From Acidimicrobiaceae bacterium (lineage in GTDB: Bacteria > Actinomycetota > Acidimicrobiia > Acidimicrobiales > RAAP-2): 64,000 bases of DNA. Location of the stretch: NCBI GenBank assembly GCA_003151235.1, contig PLWZ01000047.1, positions 1 to 64,000 on the forward strand, read 5' to 3'. The position numbers were made by a program, and so were the translations under genes. The notes under the pieces are model-generated. The model did not search any database, was not told the DNA's origin, and worked only from the letters and a program-made list of their open reading frames with translations. The first letter of the stretch is position 1; every line of letters begins with the position of its first letter. Shown piece by piece: positions 34,549 through 58,900 of this stretch.

Positions 34549-36759
34549 ATGTCCACGGCAGAGAGCGATGCCCACCATGCGCGTACTTCGGACCTGGCAC
34601 AGGCGGTCGTAGACAGCTCATCTGAGCGCCAACGGGCCGAGCAGGCTGAGGGCGTCCTGCTGCCGGACGATCTCCTCCCAGGCACCAGGGAAACACATAC
34701 CTCGCTGAAGGACGGCCTGCAGAAGGTCGGCTTTCGCACCTTCACCATCCTGCTGATAATCGTCTCACTCGACAACCTTCAGAGCTCCGGCCTCGCGGTG
34801 CTGGCCCCAAACATCCAGGCATCGCTTCACGTCAGCTCCGGGGTGATCGTCTTTGTGAGCGGGATCTCCGGAGGGTTCCTCGTTCTCGGGATCGTGCCTC
34901 TCGGATGGCTGGCCGACAGGGTTAGGCGGGCGCCGATCGTCGGGATCGCCACCTTCGTGTTCGGCATCATGGTCTTCGCCTCGGGGGTCGCTTCGAACAT
35001 CTTCTTGTTCTTCCTGGCCCGGTTTGGGGCAGGCGTGTCTCAATCGAGCACCCAGACGGTGCACACGTCACTACTGGCCGACACCTACCCGATCGGTCTG
35101 CGGGGGCGCATCAGTGCGGGGATGGCGATCGGCGCCGGAACCGCCGGCGCCTTGAGCCCGCTCTTGGTCGGATCCATCACCACCGCGGTCGGTGGGGCAA
35201 ACGGTTGGCGCTGGGCGTTCTGCCTGCTCGCGGCCCCGATCCTCCTCGTTTCTGTCATCGCTTTTGGCCTACCGGAACCTCCTAGAGGGCAGTTCGAGAA
35301 GTTGGACGTCCTCGGTGAGGTCATCGAAGACCCCGACCCGGTGCCACCGTCGCTGGAGGCCGCGTTTGGGCGGATCACACGCATCCGCACCATAAAGGCC
35401 TGCCTGGTGGCCTTTTCCGCCATCGGGTTCGGCCTGTTCACGGGCCCGGTCCTGGGCAACCTATTTCTGAAGCAGCACTTCCATCTCGATGCCTTTCGGC
35501 GCGGACTGATCGGCACGATCGGTGGGATCGGGGTGCTCATCGCGCTGCCCTTTATCGGTCGTTACTACGACCGCCTGTACCACCAGGACCCGGCCAAGGC
35601 ACTGGCGCTCATCGGCAAGGTCCTCCTGCCCGCGGCCGTGCTGACACCGATCCAGTACTTCATGCCGAACGTGTGGCTGTACGCCGTGTTCAGCGTTCCG
35701 ACTGCGGTTCTCCTGTTGACCTCGTTCTCGATGATCGCCCCGATCCTCCAATCCGTCGCTCCCTACCGGCTCCGAGGCCTCACCTTCGCGGTCTCGTCGA
35801 TCTACGTCTTCTTCATTGGCGCCACCGGTGGGGCAGCACTGTCGGCACTGTTCGACGCATCGTTCGGCCCTCGGACTGCCATCCTGCTCGTCTCGATCCC
35901 TTCCATCCTCCTCGGTGGCATCCTGATCATCAGGAGTTCGAGATTCGTGCGCAACGATCTCTCCTTGGTCGTCGTGGAGCTCCAGGAGGAGCTCGAGGAT
36001 CACAAGCGTCGACAAGCCGATCCTGACTCGATACCCGTTCTCCAGCTGAACGCGATCGACTTCAGTTATGGAAACGTGCAAGTCCTCTTCGACCTGGCAT
36101 TCGAAGTCAAGCGGGGAGAGGTCCTGGCCCTGCTCGGGACGAACGGTGCGGGTAAGTCGACTGCGCTCCGTATCGCCGCCGGTCTTGAAACCCCCTCTCG
36201 AGGGGTCGTACGCCTCGATGGGCGAACGATCACCTACACGTCCCCTGAGCAACGGTCGCGGCTCGGGATCCACTTCCTGCCTGGGGGGAAGGGCGTCTTT
36301 CCCGAAATGACGATCGCCGAGAACCTCGAGATCGGAGCTTTCGCCTACCGATCCGATCGCGCCGACACCCGCGATCGGATCGAGCGAGTCTTCAATCTGT
36401 TTCCGATGTTGGCGCAGCGAAGGACCAAGCGGGCCGACACGCTATCGGGCGGTCAGCAACAGATGCTGGCCCTCGCCATCTCCCTGCTGCACGATCCCAA
36501 GGTCCTCATGATCGACGAACTCTCGCTCGGGCTCGCCCCAATCATCGTCCAAGAGTTGATCACGATGGTGGAGCGACTGAAGGAAGAGGGCGTGACGCTG
36601 ATCATCGTCGAACAGTCGCTGAACGTTGCGGCCGCGATCGCCGACAGAGCCATCTTTATGGAGAAGGGCCAGGTCCGGTTCAGTGGACCGATGGACGAGC
36701 TCATGGCACGCGACGATCTGGCTCGGGCCGTCTTCCTCGGAGGCCAGATGCCCACATGA
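34549..36759 (+). CDS. MFS transporter fused to a LivF-like ABC ATPase
   Basis: The 736-residue fusion has a charged N-terminal tail of ~60 residues and then about 12 membrane spans with the MFS motif A GWLADRVRRAPIVG (about residues 116-129). The spans end near residue 465. After a short helical linker (LQEELEDHKRRQ), residues ~490-736 form a complete ATPase: Walker A GTNGAGKST (about 529), signature LSGGQQQMLALA, Walker B KVLMIDELSLGLAP and H-loop replaced by VEQS as in LivF proteins. The frame is continuous. It overlaps the next gene by 4 bp (ATGA). An ATPase of the LivF class is otherwise missing from this importer, so the fusion probably supplies it. Confidence 0.9.
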   Translation: MSTAESDAHHARTSDLAQAVVDSSSERQRAEQAEGVLLPDDLLPGTRETHTSLKDGLQKVGFRTFTILLIIVSLDNLQSSGLAVLAPNIQASLHVSSGVIVFVSGISGGFLVLGIVPLGWLADRVRRAPIVGIATFVFGIMVFASGVASNIFLFFLARFGAGVSQSSTQTVHTSLLADTYPIGLRGRISAGMAIGAGTAGALSPLLVGSITTAVGGANGWRWAFCLLAAPILLVSVIAFGLPEPPRGQFEKLDVLGEVIEDPDPVPPSLEAAFGRITRIRTIKACLVAFSAIGFGLFTGPVLGNLFLKQHFHLDAFRRGLIGTIGGIGVLIALPFIGRYYDRLYHQDPAKALALIGKVLLPAAVLTPIQYFMPNVWLYAVFSVPTAVLLLTSFSMIAPILQSVAPYRLRGLTFAVSSIYVFFIGATGGAALSALFDASFGPRTAILLVSIPSILLGGILIIRSSRFVRNDLSLVVVELQEELEDHKRRQADPDSIPVLQLNAIDFSYGNVQVLFDLAFEVKRGEVLALLGTNGAGKSTALRIAAGLETPSRGVVRLDGRTITYTSPEQRSRLGIHFLPGGKGVFPEMTIAENLEIGAFAYRSDRADTRDRIERVFNLFPMLAQRRTKRADTLSGGQQQMLALAISLLHDPKVLMIDELSLGLAPIIVQELITMVERLKEEGVTLIIVEQSLNVAAAIADRAIFMEKGQVRFSGPMDELMARDDLARAVFLGGQMPT

Positions 36760-39620
36760 CTCTGGCCACCGTCTCGTGGATCAATAGCCAGATTGTCTTC
36801 GATGGTGTCGTGCAGGGAATGGCGATTGCGATCATCGCCGTGGGAGTCATTCTCGTCTACAGAGCCACACGAATCATCAACTTCGCGGTCGGGGGGATGG
36901 GCGTCGTAGGGGCGGTGATCCTCGCGCTGCTCAACATCCAGTACCACGTGCCGTTCTGGCCGTCGTTCATCATCGCCATCTTGATCGGGCTGGTGTTCGG
37001 CGCGGCCGTCGACTCGACGATCGTGCGACGACTGCGACGTGCGCCGAAGGTCGTCATTCTCGTGGCGACGATCGGGATCGCTCAGGTGGCCCAGGCGATC
37101 GCGGCGGAGATCCCCACACCGAGCAACGTGAGCGTTCGGTATCCGACGGTCTTCAACGGGTCATGGACCGTGGCCGGAGTGAGCATTCATGGCTCCGACC
37201 TCAGTGTCTTGGTGCTGGTTCCGCTGAGCCTGGTCGCCCTGATGTGGTTCCTCGATCGGACGACGCTCGGCAAGACGGTGAAGGCCTGTGCCACCAACCC
37301 GGAGCTGGCCCGGATCTCGAGCGTCAGTCCGAAGTGGGTGTCGACCATGGTCTGGTCGCTGGGCGCCGGCCTCTCGACGCTGTCCATCATCCTCATCGCC
37401 GGTCAGGCCGGCTCGGTCGGAATGGTGGCCAACCTGGGTCCCGAGACGCTCTCTCGAGCCCTTGCCGCTGCCGTGATCGCTGGAATGACGTCGGTGCGCA
37501 GAGCGATCCTTGCCAGTGTGGTGATCGGCATCGTCCAGAACATCGTCACGTTCAACTTTCTCGCGGATCCCGGTATCACCGATCTATTGCTCTTCGTCGT
37601 GATCCTGGTCGCACTGGGTTTCTACCGGAACGAGCGTGGCGGTGGAGCCCAGGTCTTTGCGTTCACACCGAAGGCTCGGCCGATCCCCGAGCGGCTCCGA
37701 TCCATCTGGTGGATACGTCACCTCGACAAGGGTGGCGTGCTCCTTCTCGGGTTGATCGGCATTCTGCTTCCGATCATCGTGACGCGGCCCTCCAGCCAGC
37801 AGCTCTTCGCGGCGGTCCTGGCCTATGCCATCTGCGCTTCGTCGCTGACTGTCGTGACCGGGTGGTCGGGCCAGCTGTCGCTCGGTCAGATGGCGTTCGC
37901 CGGTCTCGGCGCGCTCTTCGCCGCGCGACTGGTCTTCGAGGGTGTGCCGTTCTGGGCCACGGTCGCCGTAGCCGCAGCGGCAACAGCCATTCTGGCTGCG
38001 GTCGTCGGCGTCGGCTCCTTGCGGGTGCGCGGCCTGTACCTCGCCGTGGTCACGTTTGCCTTCGCTCTCGCGGCGCAGCAGTACTTCTACCTCTTGCCCG
38101 TCTTCAGCGGAGAATCGACTGACGGGGTCACCGTCCCATACAGCCCGGGCCATCTCTTCTTCCTGGCTTTCTCGGGCAACCGCACCTACTACTACGTGGT
38201 CCTGGTGATCCTGGCCCTGGTGATTGCGCTGCTGAGTCGATTCCGGTCGAGCAGCCTCGGCCGGACCACCAAGGCCGTTCGGGACAACGAAATCGCCGCA
38301 GCGGCCTTTACCGTCGCTCCGCCAGTCACCAAGGTCCGGGCCTTCGTCGTCGCGGGCGCACTCGCGGGATTGGGCGGCGCGTTGTTGAGTGGGGCGTTCG
38401 CCAGCATTCCGTTCGTGCCGAGCGGTGGCGGAGGCGCAGGGTTCTTCCTCGTAAACGGCTCGCTGTCGCTCGTCGCCATGGTCGTCATCGGCGGGATGGG
38501 TTCGGTCACCGGGGCGGTCTTGGGGGCGATCTGGGTCGTCGGCATCCCGGCGTTCGCCCCTAACAACCAGGTGCTGGCACTCCTCACATCGAGCGTCGGC
38601 CTGCTGGTGATCCTCCTGTACTTCCCGCGCGGGCTCAACCAGATCGTCAGCGGCGTCCGCGACGCCATCGTCGACTTTGCAGACCGTCGACTGGGCGAGC
38701 GGGCCGCACCCGAAACAGCCCCGTACCCGGCGGCGGTGCGCCGGGCCGAGCCCGCCCAGCTTGGCCCCGGAGAGCCGGCGCTTGCGGTGACAAATCTGAG
38801 CGTCAACTTCGGGGGGAATCTTGCCCTCAACGAGGCCACGTTGACCGTCGGTGACAGGGAGATCGTCGGTCTCATCGGGAACAACGGCGCCGGCAAGTCG
38901 ACGCTCATGAACGCCGTCGGCGGCTTCGTGACCAGCCACGGCTCGGTGCGACTCCTTGGGGACGAGATCGGTGACAAGTCCCCGGCCCGTCGAGCCGCTC
39001 TCGGACTGGGGCGGACCTTCCAGTCAGCGATGCTGTTCCCGGAGCTGACGGTCAGCGAGACCCTTTTGGTTGCGCTCGAGGCGAGGCGCAGCACCGGGGT
39101 GCTCTCAACGGCGTTCTCGCTCCCGCGGGCGAGGCGCCACAGCCGCGAGGTCTACGCCGAAGTTGGCGAACTCGTCGCCTTCCTCGGGCTGGCCCAGTAC
39201 CGGGACTCCTTTGTGAGCGACCTCTCAACGGGGACCAGGAGGGTCGTCGAGTTAGCGGGCCTGCTCGCCCTGAACGCCAGGGTCCTCTGTCTCGACGAAC
39301 CGACCGCCGGACTCGCGCAGCGAGAGACCGAGGCCTTCGGACCCCTGATTACCGCCGTGCAGCGAGAACTCCAGGCTTCGGTGCTTGTGATCGAGCACGA
39401 CATGCCCGTCGTCATGAGTATCAGCCAGCGCGTCTATTGCCTGGAGACGGGGGCGATCATCGCGGAGGGGCCGCCCAGTGATATCCAACACGACCCTCGG
39501 GTTATCGCCAGCTATCTCGGCACCGATGAGCGAGCCATCGCCCGGAGTGGAAAGACGAACCGGGAATCACAACCGTCCGTGCCAGTGATCACCTCCGCGG
39601 TTCCGCCATCAATCGTCTAG
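36756..39620 (+). CDS. LivH-LivM-LivG fusion: branched-chain-type ABC permease/permease/ATPase
   Basis: The 954-residue protein has a LivH-like permease at about residues 1-290 (AVGVILVYRATRIINFAVGG), a LivM-like permease at about 325-640 (VVTGWSGQLSLGQMAFAGLG), and a LivG-like ATPase at about 670-930 with Walker A GNNGAGKST, Walker B VLCLDEPTAGLAQ and H-loop VLVIEHDM. The ABC signature is DLSTGTRRVVELA, not the consensus LSGGQ; LivG proteins often vary here. With the upstream binding protein and MFS-LivF fusion it completes a five-component importer in three chains. Translation is coupled to the fusion gene by the ATGA overlap. Confidence 0.93.
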   Translation: MTLATVSWINSQIVFDGVVQGMAIAIIAVGVILVYRATRIINFAVGGMGVVGAVILALLNIQYHVPFWPSFIIAILIGLVFGAAVDSTIVRRLRRAPKVVILVATIGIAQVAQAIAAEIPTPSNVSVRYPTVFNGSWTVAGVSIHGSDLSVLVLVPLSLVALMWFLDRTTLGKTVKACATNPELARISSVSPKWVSTMVWSLGAGLSTLSIILIAGQAGSVGMVANLGPETLSRALAAAVIAGMTSVRRAILASVVIGIVQNIVTFNFLADPGITDLLLFVVILVALGFYRNERGGGAQVFAFTPKARPIPERLRSIWWIRHLDKGGVLLLGLIGILLPIIVTRPSSQQLFAAVLAYAICASSLTVVTGWSGQLSLGQMAFAGLGALFAARLVFEGVPFWATVAVAAAATAILAAVVGVGSLRVRGLYLAVVTFAFALAAQQYFYLLPVFSGESTDGVTVPYSPGHLFFLAFSGNRTYYYVVLVILALVIALLSRFRSSSLGRTTKAVRDNEIAAAAFTVAPPVTKVRAFVVAGALAGLGGALLSGAFASIPFVPSGGGGAGFFLVNGSLSLVAMVVIGGMGSVTGAVLGAIWVVGIPAFAPNNQVLALLTSSVGLLVILLYFPRGLNQIVSGVRDAIVDFADRRLGERAAPETAPYPAAVRRAEPAQLGPGEPALAVTNLSVNFGGNLALNEATLTVGDREIVGLIGNNGAGKSTLMNAVGGFVTSHGSVRLLGDEIGDKSPARRAALGLGRTFQSAMLFPELTVSETLLVALEARRSTGVLSTAFSLPRARRHSREVYAEVGELVAFLGLAQYRDSFVSDLSTGTRRVVELAGLLALNARVLCLDEPTAGLAQRETEAFGPLITAVQRELQASVLVIEHDMPVVMSISQRVYCLETGAIIAEGPPSDIQHDPRVIASYLGTDERAIARSGKTNRESQPSVPVITSAVPPSIV

Positions 39621-41534: not shown

Positions 41535-43997
41535 GTGCGCCAGCTCCTGAGCGACATCCGGGTGGTCGAGCTGTCCGACGAACCGGCCGGCGCGTACTGC
41601 GGAAAGGTCTTCGCGGATCTCGGCGCCCACGTGGTGAAGGTCGAGCGACCGACGGGCGCCGCGCTCCGGCAACGACCCGGCGCCTGGCTCCACCTGTGCA
41701 CGAACAAGCGCTCCGTCGTCCTCGGAGATGACCGGGCGACGGGTCCGGCGCTCGACGAACTGCTCGCATCGGCCGACCTGATCGTCGAGAGCCCTGGCCA
41801 AGGCGACCTCGCCGCCTTCGGCATGCAACGAGAGGAGATTCGGGCCGGTCATCCCAGGCTCGTGATCGCGTCGGTCAGTGGCTTTGGCGTCGAAGGACCC
41901 TACGCCGGCTACCGCTGGTCCGATCTGGTGGCCCAGGCGGCCGCCTGGCTCGTGCTGCCGCTCGGCCGCTCGCAGGTTGTCCCGGTGAAGTTCCCCGCGC
42001 TCGCGGCCATGAGCACCCTCGGCCACACCATGGCTTGCGGGGCGTTGGCCGGAGTTCGCTACGCCCGAGCCACGGGCCGCGGCGCGCACATCGACTGCGC
42101 GGCGTCGGAGGCGCTCGCATCGGGGCCGTTCCGCATCGCTCGGTTCTTGGGTTGGGAGTACCGGGACCGTGGTCCCGAAGAGGACGTCCCGGTGAGCGCC
42201 GACGGCACCCTCATCCCCATCGGGGTCTTCCCGTGTGCCGACGGATACGTCTCATTGATGTCCACCCCCCAACAGCTGCCCGAGATGCTGTCGGTCCTCG
42301 ACAACGAACCGCTCAACGAGGCGTTCCGCCGGCCCGACGCATTCGTTCGTCCAGAAACCAAGGAGATCCTCGACGCCGCGCTCTACCCATGGCTCTTCGC
42401 ACACCCGCGGGCCGAGCTCACTGCGATGGCCCAGCGGGCCGGGTGGCCGTTCGCCCACGTCCTCTCGACGGCCGAGGTCCTCGAGGTCGACCACCTCCAC
42501 CAGCGGGGCTTCTGGTCGGAGGTGGAAGGGCCGTCGGGGCCGATCCGGTTGGCCGGTCCCCCCTACCGCCACGCCGAGGGTGGGTGGCGCCTCCATTGGC
42601 CGGGCCCCGAGCTCGGTGGCCCCGAACATTCCGGTGGCTCGCTCCCGGCACGTCCGGCTAACCCGGCCACTTTGAATCGCACCGTGACCCCTTCGTCCAC
42701 GCCGCCCCTCGACGGCATCCGGGTGCTCGATCTCACAACCGTTTGGTCGGGGCCATACCTGACCCTTCTGCTCGCCGATCTCGGAGCCGAGGTCATCCGG
42801 ATCGAGAACCCGTCGGTCTTCCCGCCGACGACCAAGGGGTATGTCCCCCGGCCCGACCCGACCCGCATGCAGCTGGGCAGCCTGGTGTCGATGTACGGGC
42901 CCGGGCTCCCAGGGCGGCCGGACCGCCCCTACAACCGCCACGCCATGAACAACTCGCTGGCCCGCAACAAGCTCTCGTGCACGCTCGACCCTCGGCGGCC
43001 TGAGGCCCGCGAGCTCTTCATGCGCCTTGTCGAGCGGTCCGACGTATTCGTCGAGAACCTCAAGCCGTCGACGCTCCACCGCCTCGGGATCCACGAGAGC
43101 GAGCTGATGGACCGCAACCCACAGATGATCGTGATCCGGCTCCCCCCGGCCGGACTAACCGGGGATTGGGCCGGGTACACCGGCTTCGGCGCCCAGTTCG
43201 ATGGGTTGAGCGGCCTCGTGAGCCTGCTGGGCCACCACGACAGCGAGATCGTCGATACCCCGTCGTCCACCTTCATGGACATGTCGTCGGGTCCAGCGGG
43301 GACCTTCGCCGTCTTGGCCGCGCTCCACTATCGCGAGGCCACGGGGCGCGGCCAGGTGATCGAGCTTTCCCAACTGGAGAACATCGTGGCCCAGCTGGGA
43401 GACGTGCTCGTCGAGACCCAATGGGGCGAGCCACCCGAGCGGGTTGGCAACCGGGACCCCCGGCAGGCCCCCCAGGGGATCTACCGCTGCCGGGGCGATC
43501 ACCGCTGGCTGGCCCTCACGGTCACCGACGACGAGGCCTGGATCGGCCTCACCTCGGTGCTCGGGCAGCCGGGGCTGGCCGAGGACCCGGACTTCGCTGA
43601 CTACGCGAAGCGCTACGAGCGCCACGACCTCCTCGACGAGCTCATCTCGGGGTGGGCGGCCGGGCAGGACGTGGTGGTGGCCTTCCACGCCCTCCAGCGC
43701 GCCGGTGTGGCCGCGTCTCCGCTCTTCAACGAGGAGCTCGTGGTCGCCGACCCCAACGTGGCCGCCCGCGAGTGGGTACGTCCCCTGACCTCGGCCGACG
43801 TGGGAACGCATCTGCACATCGGTAACGCCTTCCGGGGCATCCCCCAGCGATGGGACCGGGGCTCCCCCACCCTGGGCGAGGACAACGAATACGTGTACCG
43901 CACGCTGCTCGGGCTCACCGACCAGGAGTACCGGCACCTCCAGGAAGTCGGCATCGTCACCGAGGACTACCTGGGACCCGACGGCTATCCGGTCTGA
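41535..43997 (+). CDS. Tandem-domain CaiB/BaiF (family III) CoA-transferase
   Basis: The 820-residue protein has two family III CoA-transferase units. The first (about 1-375) starts LSDIRVVELSDEPAGAYCGK; the second (about 390-820) starts LDGIRVLDLTTVWSGPYLT. The second unit has the catalytic Asp in TFMDMSSGPAG (about residue 582). At the equivalent place the first unit reads FPALAAMSTLGH with no Asp, so it may be structural only. Family III enzymes move CoA between carboxylic acids as interlocked dimers; a tandem chain could form such a dimer in one polypeptide. GGGGGAAAACC precedes GTG 41535. Confidence 0.88.
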   Translation: MRQLLSDIRVVELSDEPAGAYCGKVFADLGAHVVKVERPTGAALRQRPGAWLHLCTNKRSVVLGDDRATGPALDELLASADLIVESPGQGDLAAFGMQREEIRAGHPRLVIASVSGFGVEGPYAGYRWSDLVAQAAAWLVLPLGRSQVVPVKFPALAAMSTLGHTMACGALAGVRYARATGRGAHIDCAASEALASGPFRIARFLGWEYRDRGPEEDVPVSADGTLIPIGVFPCADGYVSLMSTPQQLPEMLSVLDNEPLNEAFRRPDAFVRPETKEILDAALYPWLFAHPRAELTAMAQRAGWPFAHVLSTAEVLEVDHLHQRGFWSEVEGPSGPIRLAGPPYRHAEGGWRLHWPGPELGGPEHSGGSLPARPANPATLNRTVTPSSTPPLDGIRVLDLTTVWSGPYLTLLLADLGAEVIRIENPSVFPPTTKGYVPRPDPTRMQLGSLVSMYGPGLPGRPDRPYNRHAMNNSLARNKLSCTLDPRRPEARELFMRLVERSDVFVENLKPSTLHRLGIHESELMDRNPQMIVIRLPPAGLTGDWAGYTGFGAQFDGLSGLVSLLGHHDSEIVDTPSSTFMDMSSGPAGTFAVLAALHYREATGRGQVIELSQLENIVAQLGDVLVETQWGEPPERVGNRDPRQAPQGIYRCRGDHRWLALTVTDDEAWIGLTSVLGQPGLAEDPDFADYAKRYERHDLLDELISGWAAGQDVVVAFHALQRAGVAASPLFNEELVVADPNVAAREWVRPLTSADVGTHLHIGNAFRGIPQRWDRGSPTLGEDNEYVYRTLLGLTDQEYRHLQEVGIVTEDYLGPDGYPV

Positions 43998-45096: not shown

Positions 45097-46770
45097 ATGA
45101 CCACCACGTCGTCGCTATCGGCGGGGAAACGTCGCTCGACCGTCGGTCGAGCGATCGAAGACCGCCTCACCCGGAAGCTGGGCCTCGCCCCCGCCACCAC
45201 CGATTTCACGGTGACTCGCAACGTCCGAGTTGCGACGCGAGACGGGCTGGAGCTCGCCGCAGACTTGTATAGGCCGACCTCGAGCGCGGTGGGCACCCTG
45301 TTGGTTCGCGGGCCCTACGGGCGGTCCCTGCCCCTCGCCTTCCCCATGGCACGAGTCTTCGCAGCCCGCGGGTACAACTGCCTGTTCGTCAGCAGCAGAG
45401 GCACGTTCGGCTCGGGCGGGGACTTCTATCCGATGCGCACCGAGGCCGACGACGGCCACGACGTCGTCGCCTGGATGGTCGCCCAGCCCTGGTTCACCGG
45501 TACCTTCGCCACCTTGGGCGGCTCCTATCTCGGATACACCCAGTGGGCGCTCCTCGCCGACCCACCAGCCGAGCTTGTCGCCGCCGTCGTCTCGGTCGGG
45601 CCTCACGATTTCGGCGAGCACGCATGGGGAACCGGGGCGTTCAAGCTCGATTTCCTCGGCTGGACCAACCAGGTCGTCCATCAGGAGGACACCGGACCGG
45701 TTGTGGGCGCGCTCCGCATGGCACTGGCCACCAACGCCCGGCGGGTCCGCTCCGCACTCGACGAGTTGCCGCTCGTCGGGGCGGCCCAAAGCCTCCTCGA
45801 AGGCCGTGCGCCCTGGTACACCGAGTGGGTCTCCCGGCCGGACCTCGAGGATCCGTTCTGGGCGCCGATGAGGCACGGGGTGGCCCTGGACCGCATCGAG
45901 GTCCCCGTGCTCCTCCTCGGGGGCTGGCAGGACATCTTTCTCGAGCAGACGATCCACCAATACCGCCGGCTCCATGACCGCGGGCTCGATGTCGCCATGA
46001 CGATCGGCCCGTGGTCGCACATCCAGGTCGGCACCAAGGGCATCTCGATCACCACGCAAGAGACGTTCGACTGGCTCGAGGAACACCTGGCCAAGAGGGG
46101 TGGGCGACGACGGCCGACCCCTGTCCATGTCTTCGTGACGGGGGCGAAAGAGTGGCGGGACCTGTCCAGCTGGCCCCCCGAGACCGACCGGCAGACCTTG
46201 TACCTTCACCCCGACCACAGCTTGTCCGATGCGGCTCCGCCGGCCGATGCGGCGCCGTCCACATTCACCTTCAACCCAGCCCATCCGACACCCACGATCG
46301 GCGGGCCTGTGCTCACGGGCCGCTGTGTGGTCGACGACACCGCACTCTCGCAGCGCTCGGACGTGTTGAGCTTCACCGGCACGGTCCTCGAGGCTCCGAT
46401 CGAGGTCCTCGGCCCGCCCGTGGTCGAACTGGCGCACCAGTGCGACAACCGCCACGCCGACTTGTTCGTGCGCGTCTCGGAAGTCGACGGCCACGGCCGG
46501 TCGCACAATGTCACCGAGGGCTATCTGCGGCTTGATCCGGCGAGGACGGGGGGGCTCGTCACGGTGACGCTCCGAGAGATCGCCCACCGGTTTGTGGCAG
46601 GCTCCCGCATACGGCTGCTCATCGCAGGGGGCACGCACCCCCGATACGCCCGGAACCTCGGAACCGACGAGAACCCGGGCACCGGCACCGAGCTACGCCC
46701 AGCCGTCCACTCCATCGGCCACGGCCGGGACGGCGTGTCGCGTCTGCTGCTTCCGACATCGCGGGTCTAG
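45097..46770 (+). CDS. CocE/NonD family serine hydrolase
   Basis: The 557-residue protein has an N-terminal alpha/beta-hydrolase domain with the conserved VATRDGLELAADLYRP and SSRGTFGSGGDFYP and the nucleophile in LGGSYLGYTQW (Ser about 149). The His is expected in IGPWSHIQ (about 308). The C-terminal jelly-roll domain carries RSHNVTEGYLRLDP. Members include cocaine esterase and X-Pro dipeptidyl peptidase relatives, which cleave esters or acyl-amides. GGGGGAACGAAGCCTC precedes ATG 45097. Confidence 0.92.
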   Translation: MTTTSSLSAGKRRSTVGRAIEDRLTRKLGLAPATTDFTVTRNVRVATRDGLELAADLYRPTSSAVGTLLVRGPYGRSLPLAFPMARVFAARGYNCLFVSSRGTFGSGGDFYPMRTEADDGHDVVAWMVAQPWFTGTFATLGGSYLGYTQWALLADPPAELVAAVVSVGPHDFGEHAWGTGAFKLDFLGWTNQVVHQEDTGPVVGALRMALATNARRVRSALDELPLVGAAQSLLEGRAPWYTEWVSRPDLEDPFWAPMRHGVALDRIEVPVLLLGGWQDIFLEQTIHQYRRLHDRGLDVAMTIGPWSHIQVGTKGISITTQETFDWLEEHLAKRGGRRRPTPVHVFVTGAKEWRDLSSWPPETDRQTLYLHPDHSLSDAAPPADAAPSTFTFNPAHPTPTIGGPVLTGRCVVDDTALSQRSDVLSFTGTVLEAPIEVLGPPVVELAHQCDNRHADLFVRVSEVDGHGRSHNVTEGYLRLDPARTGGLVTVTLREIAHRFVAGSRIRLLIAGGTHPRYARNLGTDENPGTGTELRPAVHSIGHGRDGVSRLLLPTSRV

Positions 46771-55164: not shown

Positions 55165-56223
55165 TCAAGGTTCGGGGTCGCGGACCTCGTCGACCAGACC
55201 CCACGCGAACGCGGTCGCCGCGTCGAGCCACCCACCGCCGAGACCCAGCCACGCCGTCCGATGTCGTCCGATCCGCCGCGGCAGGCTGGCCGTTCCCCCG
55301 GCCCCGGGGATAAGGCCCATCCCAACCTCGGGCAGCCGGACTCTGGTGTCGGTCGTCGCGACGACGCGGCCGGCCAGCGCGGCTATCTCGATACCGGCGC
55401 CGACGCAGGCGCCATGGATCTCGACGGTGACCCGGGACGCCACGCGCGAAAGCAAGAGCGCCGGGCTGCGGGTGGTCCGGATCAAATGGGACGCCGTCGG
55501 CCCGGGCCCGGTCCCGAACTCGTCGAGGTCACCGCCACTGCAGAAGTCGGAGCCGGCGCCAAGGAGCCTCGCAGACTCGATGCTCGGGTCCAACGCGACA
55601 AGCTCAAGGGCCTCCTGCAGCCCATCACGCACCCCAACATCAAAGGCATTGCGAACCTGCGGACGGTTCAAGGTGATGGTCAGCACCGCACCGTCGCGTT
55701 CAAGCACGACCGGTGAGCCGATCTGCGCCCCGTGGTCGCGGCCGGTCGGCTTGGAGCCCAGCCAACTGAGGTGCTCGACGCCCGCCTGAAGCGCGCTGTA
55801 GGCGAGTGACTCGACGAAAAGGTCGCGTTCGATGGACTCAGCGGACCCGGCTCGCAGGACCTGCATGAGCGTGACGGTCGCGATCGGTGACCTCTTCAAC
55901 GCCTCGTCGACCCGCGACAGCTCGGCATCGAGATCGGCAACAGCCACCCACCCAACGCGAAGACGTGGCCCGAGCCGGGCCACGTCTTCGGGCACGAGCA
56001 CAATATCGACACCAGCCGATATATCCGATCTCGACTCCGTGGACCCGGTGCGCGATAAACCGATCACCACTCCGGCGAAGGCGACCGGCAGGCGCTCCAA
56101 TGCCGTCGATCGCGGAGCGTCCAGGTCGATGACCACCAGCGCGGCCTGGTCGGCCGGCAACCGCGCCAGGCCAAGTGAAGGCGGGTCGTCCGATCCGGGA
56201 TCACTGGTCAACCGCTCGTTCAT
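55165..56223 (-). CDS. Enoyl-CoA hydratase/isomerase with long N-terminal extension
   Basis: The 352-residue protein has the crotonase fold in its C-terminal half: GAVLTITLNRPQVRNAFD (about residues 182-199), the oxyanion loop in GAGSDFCSGGDLDEFGTG and HGACVGAGIEIAALAG, and the catalytic Glu in RLPEVGMGLIPGAGG. A normal enzyme has ~260 residues; here ~170 extra N-terminal residues contain ALVVIDLDAPRSTALER, which looks like a degenerate second crotonase-like half. Divergent from a CoA-transferase (89-bp gap), it probably hydrates the CoA ester formed there. Confidence 0.88.
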   Translation of the reverse strand: MNERLTSDPGSDDPPSLGLARLPADQAALVVIDLDAPRSTALERLPVAFAGVVIGLSRTGSTESRSDISAGVDIVLVPEDVARLGPRLRVGWVAVADLDAELSRVDEALKRSPIATVTLMQVLRAGSAESIERDLFVESLAYSALQAGVEHLSWLGSKPTGRDHGAQIGSPVVLERDGAVLTITLNRPQVRNAFDVGVRDGLQEALELVALDPSIESARLLGAGSDFCSGGDLDEFGTGPGPTASHLIRTTRSPALLLSRVASRVTVEIHGACVGAGIEIAALAGRVVATTDTRVRLPEVGMGLIPGAGGTASLPRRIGRHRTAWLGLGGGWLDAATAFAWGLVDEVRDPEP

Positions 56224-56312: not shown

Positions 56313-57416
56313 ATGCCCGTTGGACGGATCGATGCCGGTTCCTCGGGCGAACCCACACTGGCCGACCCGCAGGCTCGCCTTCTACAGACACTCGCCGATG
56401 AGATCGACGGCCGATCCGCGCCAGCCGGCCGAGCAGGGAGACTCGACTGGCATCACGAACTGACGGTCCGTGGCCGACTCCTCGGAGGGCGGCCGAGGGG
56501 GCGCAGCTCGGCGAGCGGCGCCTGCCGGATCCTCCGCAGCGGCGACGGATGGATCGCCATCAGCTTGGCCCGACCGTGGGACCTCGAGGTGTTGCCGGCA
56601 CTCGTGGAGGGCCCCGTTGCCGAGGACCACTGGGCGACATTGGGCTGTTGGGTCGCGGCTCGGCCCGGGGCCGACGCGGTGCGGCGGGCCCGCCTCTTGG
56701 ACATGGCCGCAGCTCAGTTCGATTCGATCGCACCTGACACCCCGGTCCCGCTGTCGGCAACCCGACGATGGCCATCGCGCGACGCGCCCGACCTGTCAGA
56801 ACTACGAGTGGTCGACCTCTCGTCCCTGTGGGCGGGGCCCCTCACCGCACGGATCCTGTCGGACGCCGGCGCCGCTGTGACCAAGGTCGAGTCGGTTGCG
56901 CGGCCGGATGGAGCACGGGAGACGCCCGGTTTCTACCGCTATCTCCATCCGGCCGAACAGTCCAACGTCGTGGTCGACTTGTCCACGGCCCTCGGCATAG
57001 CCCAGCTGCACGAGCTGATCGAGGCTGCCGACGTGGTGATCGAGGCATCTCGCCCCCGGGCCCTCGAGCAACTCGGCTCGGGGCCCGACCAGGTTCAACC
57101 CAAGTCCGGGCGCGTCTGGTTAAGCATCACCGGGTACGGGCGCCGTGGACCGGGGGCCAACTGGATCGCCTTCGGGGATGACGCAGCGGTGGCCGGTGGC
57201 CTCACGGCCACGACCAACGACGGGGAGCCCGTCTTCTGCGGCGACGCCGTCGCCGACCCCGTGACCGGGTTGTTCGGAGCGGCGGCGGTGCTTCGTTCGC
57301 TCGCAGCCGGCGGCGGTCATCTGATCGACCTGGCCCTTGCCGGCGCCGCGGCAGCGGTCGCCCGGGCCGGTGCATGCGAATCGAGGGAGGCACTGGAGCC
57401 GATTTGGCCGTCCTGA
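56313..57416 (+). CDS. Half-size CaiB/BaiF-type CoA-transferase
   Basis: The protein has 367 residues from ATG 56313. The conserved CoA-binding start LSELRVVDLSSLWAGPLTAR, normally near residue 5-25, is here at about 162, followed by AAVTKVESVARPDGARETPG, a VVVDLSTALG strand and SITGYGRRGPGANW. The catalytic Asp may be in AVADPVTGLFGAAAVL (about residue 315). The first ~150 residues (WHHELTVRGRLLGGRPRG and onwards) resemble material that usually follows, so the chain looks rearranged or permuted. It overlaps the next gene by 43 bp and is divergent from the enoyl-CoA hydratase. Confidence 0.75.
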   Translation: MPVGRIDAGSSGEPTLADPQARLLQTLADEIDGRSAPAGRAGRLDWHHELTVRGRLLGGRPRGRSSASGACRILRSGDGWIAISLARPWDLEVLPALVEGPVAEDHWATLGCWVAARPGADAVRRARLLDMAAAQFDSIAPDTPVPLSATRRWPSRDAPDLSELRVVDLSSLWAGPLTARILSDAGAAVTKVESVARPDGARETPGFYRYLHPAEQSNVVVDLSTALGIAQLHELIEAADVVIEASRPRALEQLGSGPDQVQPKSGRVWLSITGYGRRGPGANWIAFGDDAAVAGGLTATTNDGEPVFCGDAVADPVTGLFGAAAVLRSLAAGGGHLIDLALAGAAAAVARAGACESREALEPIWPS

Positions 57417-58900
57417 TCCGTCGGGTCGTCGTGGATCCCGTCACGCCCGGGAGCGTGCCGGACGTGATCGGTGGCGAGATCGTCGACGTGCGGACCGTCG
57501 GCGATCGCATTGACGAAATCGGACCCCACATCGCGCCACGGCCGGGCGACGAGACGGTCGACGGCCGAGGCGGGCCGATCCTTCCCGGGCTTCATGACCA
57601 TCACGTGCACCTGTGGGCGTGGGCGGCCGCGGCGGAGTCGGTCGATGTAGCGCCGCCGGCGGTTGACTCCGCCGACAGCCTCGCTAGGTGCCTCCGGGCG
57701 GCTCCCGGTGCACCCGGCACCTGGATCCGCGCGATCGGCTACCACGAATCGGCCGCAGGCCTTCTTGATCGCGAGACGCTCGATCGGCTCCTTCCGGACC
57801 GCCCGGCTCGGATCCAGCATCGCAGCGGGGCGCTGTGGGTCTTGAACTCCCTGGCTTTGGAAAGGCTGGGGCTCGACCCGCCCCCTGCCGACGCGTCGAC
57901 GCCCCTCGAGCTCGACACCACGGGCCGCCCAACCGGGCGCGTCTGGCGAGGCGATACGTGGTTGCGCGAGCGGCTGGCCACCTTTGGGTGTAGTCAAACC
58001 CCCGACCTCGCGGCAATCAGCCGGAGAGCCGCCTCACTCGGGGTCACCGGTTTGACCGACGCGACGCCCGACCAGGATCACGCTTCGCTCGCTGCCCTGA
58101 TCGATGCCCGCACCAGCGGCCTGATCCTCCAGCGCCTCCATCTCATGGTCGGACGGGACGCCCTGGGTCCTGATGGATCGGGACCCTCCACCAGTGCGTC
58201 GGCCGCCCCCGGGTGGCCCGCGACGATCACCCCGGGACCGGTCAAGGTCATGCTCGACGACGAACGCCTGCCGACCTTCGACGAGTTGGTCACCCTTATC
58301 GGCCGTGCCCACTCGTCGGGCCGGCCGGTTGCGGTCCACTGCGTGACGAGGACCCAGGGCGCTCTCGCGGTGGCCGCTTTCTCGGAAGCAGGGGCGGTGC
58401 CGGGCGATCGAATCGAGCACGGGTCGCTTATCGGCTTGGACCTGGTTCCAACGTTGCGGCGGCTCGGCCTCATCGTGGTCACCCAGCCCGGGTTCCTCCA
58501 CCAACGCGGTGACCGCTACCTGGCCGACGTGGCTGCCGAAGACGGTCGCGACCTGTGGAGGCTGGGGTCATTGCTCGACGCCGGAATCCCAATCGCACTG
58601 AGCACCGATGCACCGTTCGGGCCCGACGATCCCTGGTCCGTCATCCAGTCCGCCGCCTCCCGGCGGACGGCCGCGGGGCGGTTGATCGGGCCGGGCGAGC
58701 GGATTGCGGCGCGACGGGCCGTCGCGCTCTTTTGCGGCGAAGGCGAACGACCGCGCCGTCGGCGGGTCGTCACGCGTGGTGGCCCTGCCGACCTCGTGGT
58801 CCTGACCGACCCGCTCGACGACTCATTGGCCAGCGGGTCGCCAACGGTGCTCGCCACGGTCGCGGCGGGGACGATCGTGCACCGCGCGGAGGCCGGTTGA
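57374..58900 (+). CDS. YtcJ-like amidohydrolase (amidohydrolase family 3)
   Basis: The 508-residue hydrolase has an N-terminal beta-sandwich leading to the metal motif GLHDHHVHLW (about residues 73-82), a central ARIQHRSGALWVLNS block, VAVHCVTRTQGALAVAAF (His) and the terminal metal Asp in IALSTDAPFGPDDP. It fits N-acyl or formamide hydrolases of the YtcJ group. The start ATG 57374 lies 43 bp inside the preceding CoA-transferase gene, indicating tight coupling. An imidazolone or N-acyl substrate is possible; I cannot choose. Confidence 0.88.
   Translation: MRIEGGTGADLAVLIRRVVVDPVTPGSVPDVIGGEIVDVRTVGDRIDEIGPHIAPRPGDETVDGRGGPILPGLHDHHVHLWAWAAAAESVDVAPPAVDSADSLARCLRAAPGAPGTWIRAIGYHESAAGLLDRETLDRLLPDRPARIQHRSGALWVLNSLALERLGLDPPPADASTPLELDTTGRPTGRVWRGDTWLRERLATFGCSQTPDLAAISRRAASLGVTGLTDATPDQDHASLAALIDARTSGLILQRLHLMVGRDALGPDGSGPSTSASAAPGWPATITPGPVKVMLDDERLPTFDELVTLIGRAHSSGRPVAVHCVTRTQGALAVAAFSEAGAVPGDRIEHGSLIGLDLVPTLRRLGLIVVTQPGFLHQRGDRYLADVAAEDGRDLWRLGSLLDAGIPIALSTDAPFGPDDPWSVIQSAASRRTAAGRLIGPGERIAARRAVALFCGEGERPRRRRVVTRGGPADLVVLTDPLDDSLASGSPTVLATVAAGTIVHRAEAG

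Follow-up and report, generated by a model that had tools for sequence, protein, structure and literature searches.

A gene from an Acidimicrobiaceae bacterium likely encodes a covalent pseudo-heterodimer of the BbsE-BbsF type, in which two family III CoA-transferase units fused in one chain would interlock with each other around a single live site. The gene lies in the window, i.e., the 64,000-nucleotide stretch of DNA analyzed in this study. An arrangement of this kind, with one active site, had been suggested in the initial annotation. It is supported here as the best reading by the loss of Asp from the first half, by the grouping of the two halves with BbsE and BbsF, by a two-gene version of the enzyme at another locus (L046), and by structure predictions for the whole chain and for its first half. 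The parts of the gene are as follows:

41535..43997, + strand: tandem (two-domain) family III CoA-transferase, 820 aa (open reading frame, Pfam and structure search)
41535..42134, + strand: Rossmann (large) domain of the first unit, residues 1-200, predicted dead site (from the mesaconyl-CoA transferase (MCT) domain layout and DSSP elements; approximate)
42003..42011, + strand: A157-A158-M159, the place of the missing catalytic Asp (profile alignments)
42207..42509, + strand: small domain of the first unit, residues 225-325, predicted to complete the live site (approximate)
42618..42692, + strand: linker between the units, residues 362-386, poorly conserved, pLDDT <50 (ortholog comparison and AlphaFold2 model)
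42702..43409, + strand: Rossmann domain of the second unit, residues 390-625 (approximate)
43278..43280, + strand: codon of the catalytic Asp582 (alignment to BbsF and profile alignments)
43467..43748, + strand: small domain of the second unit, residues 645-738, predicted to face the dead site (approximate)

The open reading frame starts with GTG, and the ortholog at locus L021, whose product is 92% identical, has ATG at this codon. The presence of two fused family III units was borne out by Pfam, which detected CoA_transf_3 (PF02515) in two stretches of the protein (E 1.3e-141, 472 bits against a cut-off of 23.3). By its domains the protein belongs to family III (CaiB/Frc), and the catalytic Asp of this family is found in the second unit only.

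This Asp had been expected near residue 582 and is located exactly there (TFMDMSS), aligned with D178 of BbsF. D178, the residue opposite D582, is also the one named as a CoA adduct in the title of PDB entry 9fol. The first unit, as proposed, does not have a catalytic Asp. Its residues 152-164 read KFPALAAMSTLGH, profile alignments place M159 in the Asp column with A158 beside it, and residues 131-186 are devoid of Asp. A relocated nucleophile in the first unit could be ruled out: besides the Asp-free stretch 131-186, D130 is kept among orthologues, but it is the family-wide "GYD" Asp located approximately 28 residues upstream of the Asp column (D in 15/15 single-domain rows) and is therefore not a relocated nucleophile. 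With Asp in the second unit and none in the first, there is thus one catalytic Asp per whole protein.

Comparison with fusion homologues, which had been proposed as a check, revealed that the one-Asp pattern is general. We aligned 42 tandem proteins to a profile built from 15 single-domain proteins; the catalytic column was occupied by Asp in 42/42 second halves, in 3/42 first halves and in all 15 single-domain proteins. This set included L026 (shifted frame near the start) and L030 (cut by the contig end), and left out L032 (which matches L027 in lengths and places), L008, L013 and L017 (the same proteins as L003 and L015), and the split L046. An Asp present in the second half and missing from the first is thus the rule among tandem homologues, and its loss on one side versus its retention on the other is not a matter of chance. 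Two further columns behave similarly: the "VEN" Asn (Asn508 column) occurs in 42/42 second halves vs. 0/42 first halves, and the Arg477 column is Arg in 69% vs. 5%. The three first halves bearing Asp are those of L025 (minus strand), L053 and L056, and 10/42 first halves have Glu in the column; because of these residues, some tandem relatives may have two sites.

Matches at E 1e-60 or better were found in 44 of 198 genomes of the order, and the source genome contains three further tandem enzymes (contigs C24, C51 and C47), all with Asp confined to the second half.

The ancestry of the two halves was examined by structure searches and trees. When the PDB was searched with the second half, the best match was BbsF (9fn0_B, E 2.7e-42), whereas the first half alone matched several family III enzymes, among which BbsE (9fn0_A, E 4.5e-20) was fourth in the list. 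The catalytic column lacks Asp in BbsE, as it does in the first half. In a tree calculated with the Asp column blanked (76 of 104 rows, near-duplicates removed), 26/28 first halves grouped with BbsE and split-N (SH-aLRT 97), and 26/28 second halves grouped with BbsF and split-C (SH-aLRT 99). A FastTree tree, without bootstrap, contained the same two groups. These matches and groupings indicate that the tandem halves are homologous to BbsE and BbsF, respectively. The branches of the first halves are long, and long-branch effects are therefore possible in the trees. The 26/28 figures leave out L006 and L015 (source genome, contigs C51 and C47), which branched among single-domain enzymes and probably arose through separate fusion events. 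Although outside the main tandem group, these proteins also have first halves without Asp, so that repeated loss after separate fusions is possible.

A two-gene version of the enzyme occurs at L046 (genome G169, minus strand), where the first gene ends with TGA, followed by AAGGAGG and then by the ATG of the second. The first protein of this split pair has Ser at the Asp column and the second has Asp. There is thus a clear ribosome-binding site between the adjacent split genes, and next to the pair lies one more unit without the Asp, with Glu at the column.

Structure prediction of the monomer, also proposed initially, was in line with the pseudo-heterodimer. The full-length AlphaFold2 model (11 sequences) is one confident 820-residue unit with a pTM of 0.87 and a pLDDT of 78.4, and 400 residues of its second half can be superposed on BbsF at 2.2 Å. 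The first half predicted alone, with the same number of sequences, reached a pTM of only 0.50, and this model matched family III structures only at 12-17 Å rmsd over 257-310 residues, in a test whose inputs differ in length and in which partner information is lacking. It is as if the first-half domains needed the partner for their placement, which is a reading of the models and not a proof.

Conservation was compared between domains in 11 orthologues. In the first half, the small domain is more conserved than the Rossmann domain (0.682 vs. 0.551; contrast +0.114 [0.030, 0.197]). This order is reversed in the second half (0.517 vs. 0.659; contrast -0.145), and the small domain is likewise the less conserved one in a single-domain control of 25 sequences (0.309 vs. 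0.472; contrast -0.177). The pattern in the 11 orthologues fits one live site; the contrast was not significant when 23 more diverse tandem proteins were compared (0.038 [-0.071, 0.147]).

The excerpted text of PMC9196870 describes the family III pocket as shared by two subunits, of which one contributes its Rossmann domain and the other its small domain. In the tandem protein, the two halves would adopt the folds of the two subunits found in the usual interlocked dimer, within one chain, and the live site would lie between the second-half Rossmann domain, which carries Asp582, and the first-half small domain. Attack of Asp582 on the acyl-CoA donor would give a mixed anhydride, followed by an aspartyl-CoA thioester, from which CoA would pass to the incoming carboxylate. 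The mirror site, composed of the first-half Rossmann domain and the second-half small domain, has lost the Asp and the conserved Asn and Arg, and probably has a scaffold role. Within a catabolic gene island, the enzyme may activate a carboxylic acid, and its donor is perhaps succinyl-CoA, as for BbsEF.

Other explanations were considered. Family III enzymes are interlocked dimers, according to the same excerpt (PMC9196870), and two tandem chains could dimerize such that first and second halves of different chains interlock, i.e., as domain-swapped fusions with two live sites per dimer. Each live site would still combine a first-half unit with a second-half unit, the swapped pairing needs no different contacts, and the model shows little order in the linker (residues 362-386). 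However, the monomer was predicted as one confident unit without a second chain (pTM 0.87); such a model is compatible with swapping, which we nevertheless consider unlikely. Quite improbable is a pair of independent units in which the first relies on a different residue or does something else, such as binding, regulation or different chemistry (racemization or lysis). A precedent for dual function is DddD, described as both a CoA-transferase and a lyase in the excerpted text of PMC6006322, and the Glu and Asp residues at the column in 10/42 and 3/42 first halves could be taken in the same sense, but in this protein the column holds Met with Ala beside it, the family-wide Asn and Arg are lost as well, and the first half alone is poorly predicted (pTM 0.50).

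An assembly or annotation artefact, in which two adjacent genes were joined in error, has a negligible probability. The window comes from a draft assembly of 93 contigs and a split form does exist at L046, but the artefact was ruled out by full-length open orthologues in named genomes, including one in Trujillonella endophytica strain DSM 45413 (57%), and the three further tandem paralogues in the source genome also argue against it.

The tandem gene is surrounded by genes for hydrolases (PF20091 twice, PF12697, PF07859 and PF02129), a branched-chain amino acid type ABC uptake system, an acyl-CoA synthetase, a thiolase-like protein, an enoyl-CoA hydratase-like protein and an aldehyde dehydrogenase, and these surroundings look like a catabolic island. 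Orthologue loci contain luciferase-like monooxygenases, amidohydrolases, solute-binding proteins or SDRs. Neighborhoods differ between orthologues, with the exception of the near-identical L021, and conserved neighbors that would fix a pathway were not found across the orthologue loci; therefore, no pathway is fixed for the tandem enzyme. Among the genes scanned, a Peripla_BP_6 gene lies beside the orthologue at three loci (L022, L027 and L028), and these genes did not match the Peripla_BP_6 gene of the window (best E 0.040).

Some other genes of the window were noted alongside. At 34549-36759 (+), MFS transporter and ABC ATPase domains are fused in a protein of 736 aa, which is 96% identical in L021. 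It is directly followed by a second fusion at 36756-39620 (+), in which two PF02653 branched-chain amino acid permease stretches are joined to an ABC ATPase (954 aa). An S15 peptidase gene (45097-46770) matches L021 11555-13220 in two frames, perhaps as a result of a frameshift in the L021 assembly.

A more novel lead than the tandem gene itself is a compact relative located 12 kb from it, together with two partner genes:

55165..56223, - strand: enoyl-CoA hydratase-like gene, partner of the compact CoA-transferase (shared trio)
56313..57413, + strand: compact CoA-transferase relative, 367 aa, small domain followed by a Rossmann domain with Asp315 (profile-profile comparison)
57374..58900, + strand: amidohydrolase (PF07969), partner of the compact CoA-transferase (shared trio)

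The compact protein matches PF02515 positions 1-208 and looks truncated. A simple truncation was ruled out by profile-profile comparison, in which its N-terminal part matched the small domain. For these hhalign comparisons, profiles of 19 rows were hand-chosen from 30 found per compact type. The N-terminal part corresponds to single-domain positions 162-326 (prob 66, E 5.5e-5), or to positions 150-328 (prob 89, E 2e-6) when Rhodococcus, Streptomyces and Sphingobium relatives were added, and the next part corresponds to Rossmann domain positions 13-217 (prob 99.8). A second compact type, of 467 aa and with the same layout, is encoded on contig C4 of the source genome (L020, 1291-2691, minus strand); its N-terminal part matches single-domain positions 173-347 (prob 97, E 9.4e-11) and the next part positions 12-225 (prob 100). 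None of 20 column-shuffled controls exceeded a prob of 0.4 (L020 type) or 0.3 (window type). All 19 rows of each type retain the C-terminal Asp. The N-terminal copy begins near the position of the Asp loop, where the alignment is too loose for an Asp count.

Matches spanning both parts were counted by hand from tables in 29/148 genomes for the window type and in 18/148 for the L020 type; L020-type relatives at E 1e-30 occur in 29/148 genomes of the order. Three plasmid records, from Rhodococcus, Streptomyces and Sphingobium, were examined among 15 matches. They contain annotated CDS of 394-455 aa, each with genes for an enoyl-CoA hydratase and an amidohydrolase beside it, the same trio as in the window; 56313-57413 is thus a real, conserved gene. 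Rhodococcus WP_151097024.1 is a compact protein of this kind.

The compact form is without the first-unit Rossmann domain and the second-unit small domain, i.e., the parts of the predicted dead site, and keeps the small domain and the Asp-bearing Rossmann domain, i.e., the parts of the predicted live site. There is a little less than an even chance that the compact relatives have a single self-contained site without interlocked rings and arose by trimming of a tandem protein or by circular permutation through a tandem intermediate. In the Rossmann trees (86 rows without near-duplicates, and 64 rows with long branches removed as well), the compact Rossmann domain grouped with second halves at an SH-aLRT of only 84-90, and its placement with first halves was not rejected by the AU test (p 0.267). 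The L020 type fell outside all other rows in the Rossmann tree. Its N-terminal part, which matched the single-domain profile at prob 97, gave prob 92 with the second-half and 26 with the first-half profile, and the large2 match at its C-terminus was weak (prob 16 and 5). In the openly licensed literature on CoA-transferases, the one paper among the matches listed that used the term "circularly permuted" dealt with a phage named CaiB. If the proposal is true, the compact forms mark the end point in the loss of the second active site and represent a natural deletion experiment that backs the one-site model of the tandem enzyme. If confirmed, they would represent family III enzymes released from the interlocked-dimer arrangement, with which the parts of the fold required for catalysis could be tested.

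Among known systems, FRC (formyl-CoA transferase), SUGCT, CaiB and mesaconyl-CoA transferase share the unit fold and the nucleophilic Asp with the tandem protein. These enzymes are homodimers with two live sites. MCT is also referred to as a dimer in the excerpted PMC9196870.

The idea of a two-domain, one-Asp CoA-transferase is not new. According to the excerpted text of PMC6006322, PtmU4 is a two-domain enzyme with an essential Asp in the C-terminal domain, mutation of which decreases activity 125-400-fold, and 2,401 relatives were reported, mostly in Actinobacteria and Proteobacteria. By this description, PtmU4 resembles the tandem protein in its tandem family III units, conserved C-terminal Asp and poorly conserved linker, but it acts in thiocarboxylic acid synthesis. 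Since two-domain enzymes with a C-terminal Asp have been described, the tandem gene is of an already known kind. DddD (DMSP CoA-transferase/lyase), an outgroup to the other one- and two-domain enzymes in the same excerpt (PMC6006322), differs, again by description, in its lyase activity; a DddD model, if NCBIfam has one, was not among the matches in an NCBIfam scan of the tandem protein. A link of two-domain fusions to BbsE and BbsF was not found in the openly licensed literature searched.

In BbsEF (succinyl-CoA:(R)-benzylsuccinate CoA-transferase; PDB 9fn0, 9fol and 9fun), one subunit has and the other lacks the catalytic Asp, as in the tandem halves. However, BbsEF consists of two separate chains and has a known substrate, and its identity to the tandem protein is only about 22-28% in structure searches. 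The tandem halves are related to BbsE and BbsF but are not separate subunits; because they form one 820-aa chain, we classify the protein as a fused relative of BbsEF and not as BbsEF. Thousands of two-domain CoA-transferases carry the bare annotation "CoA transferase". The correspondence of their halves to BbsE and BbsF would provide a structural template (9fn0 and 9fol) and a rule, by which the live site is composed of the second-half Asp and the first-half small domain.
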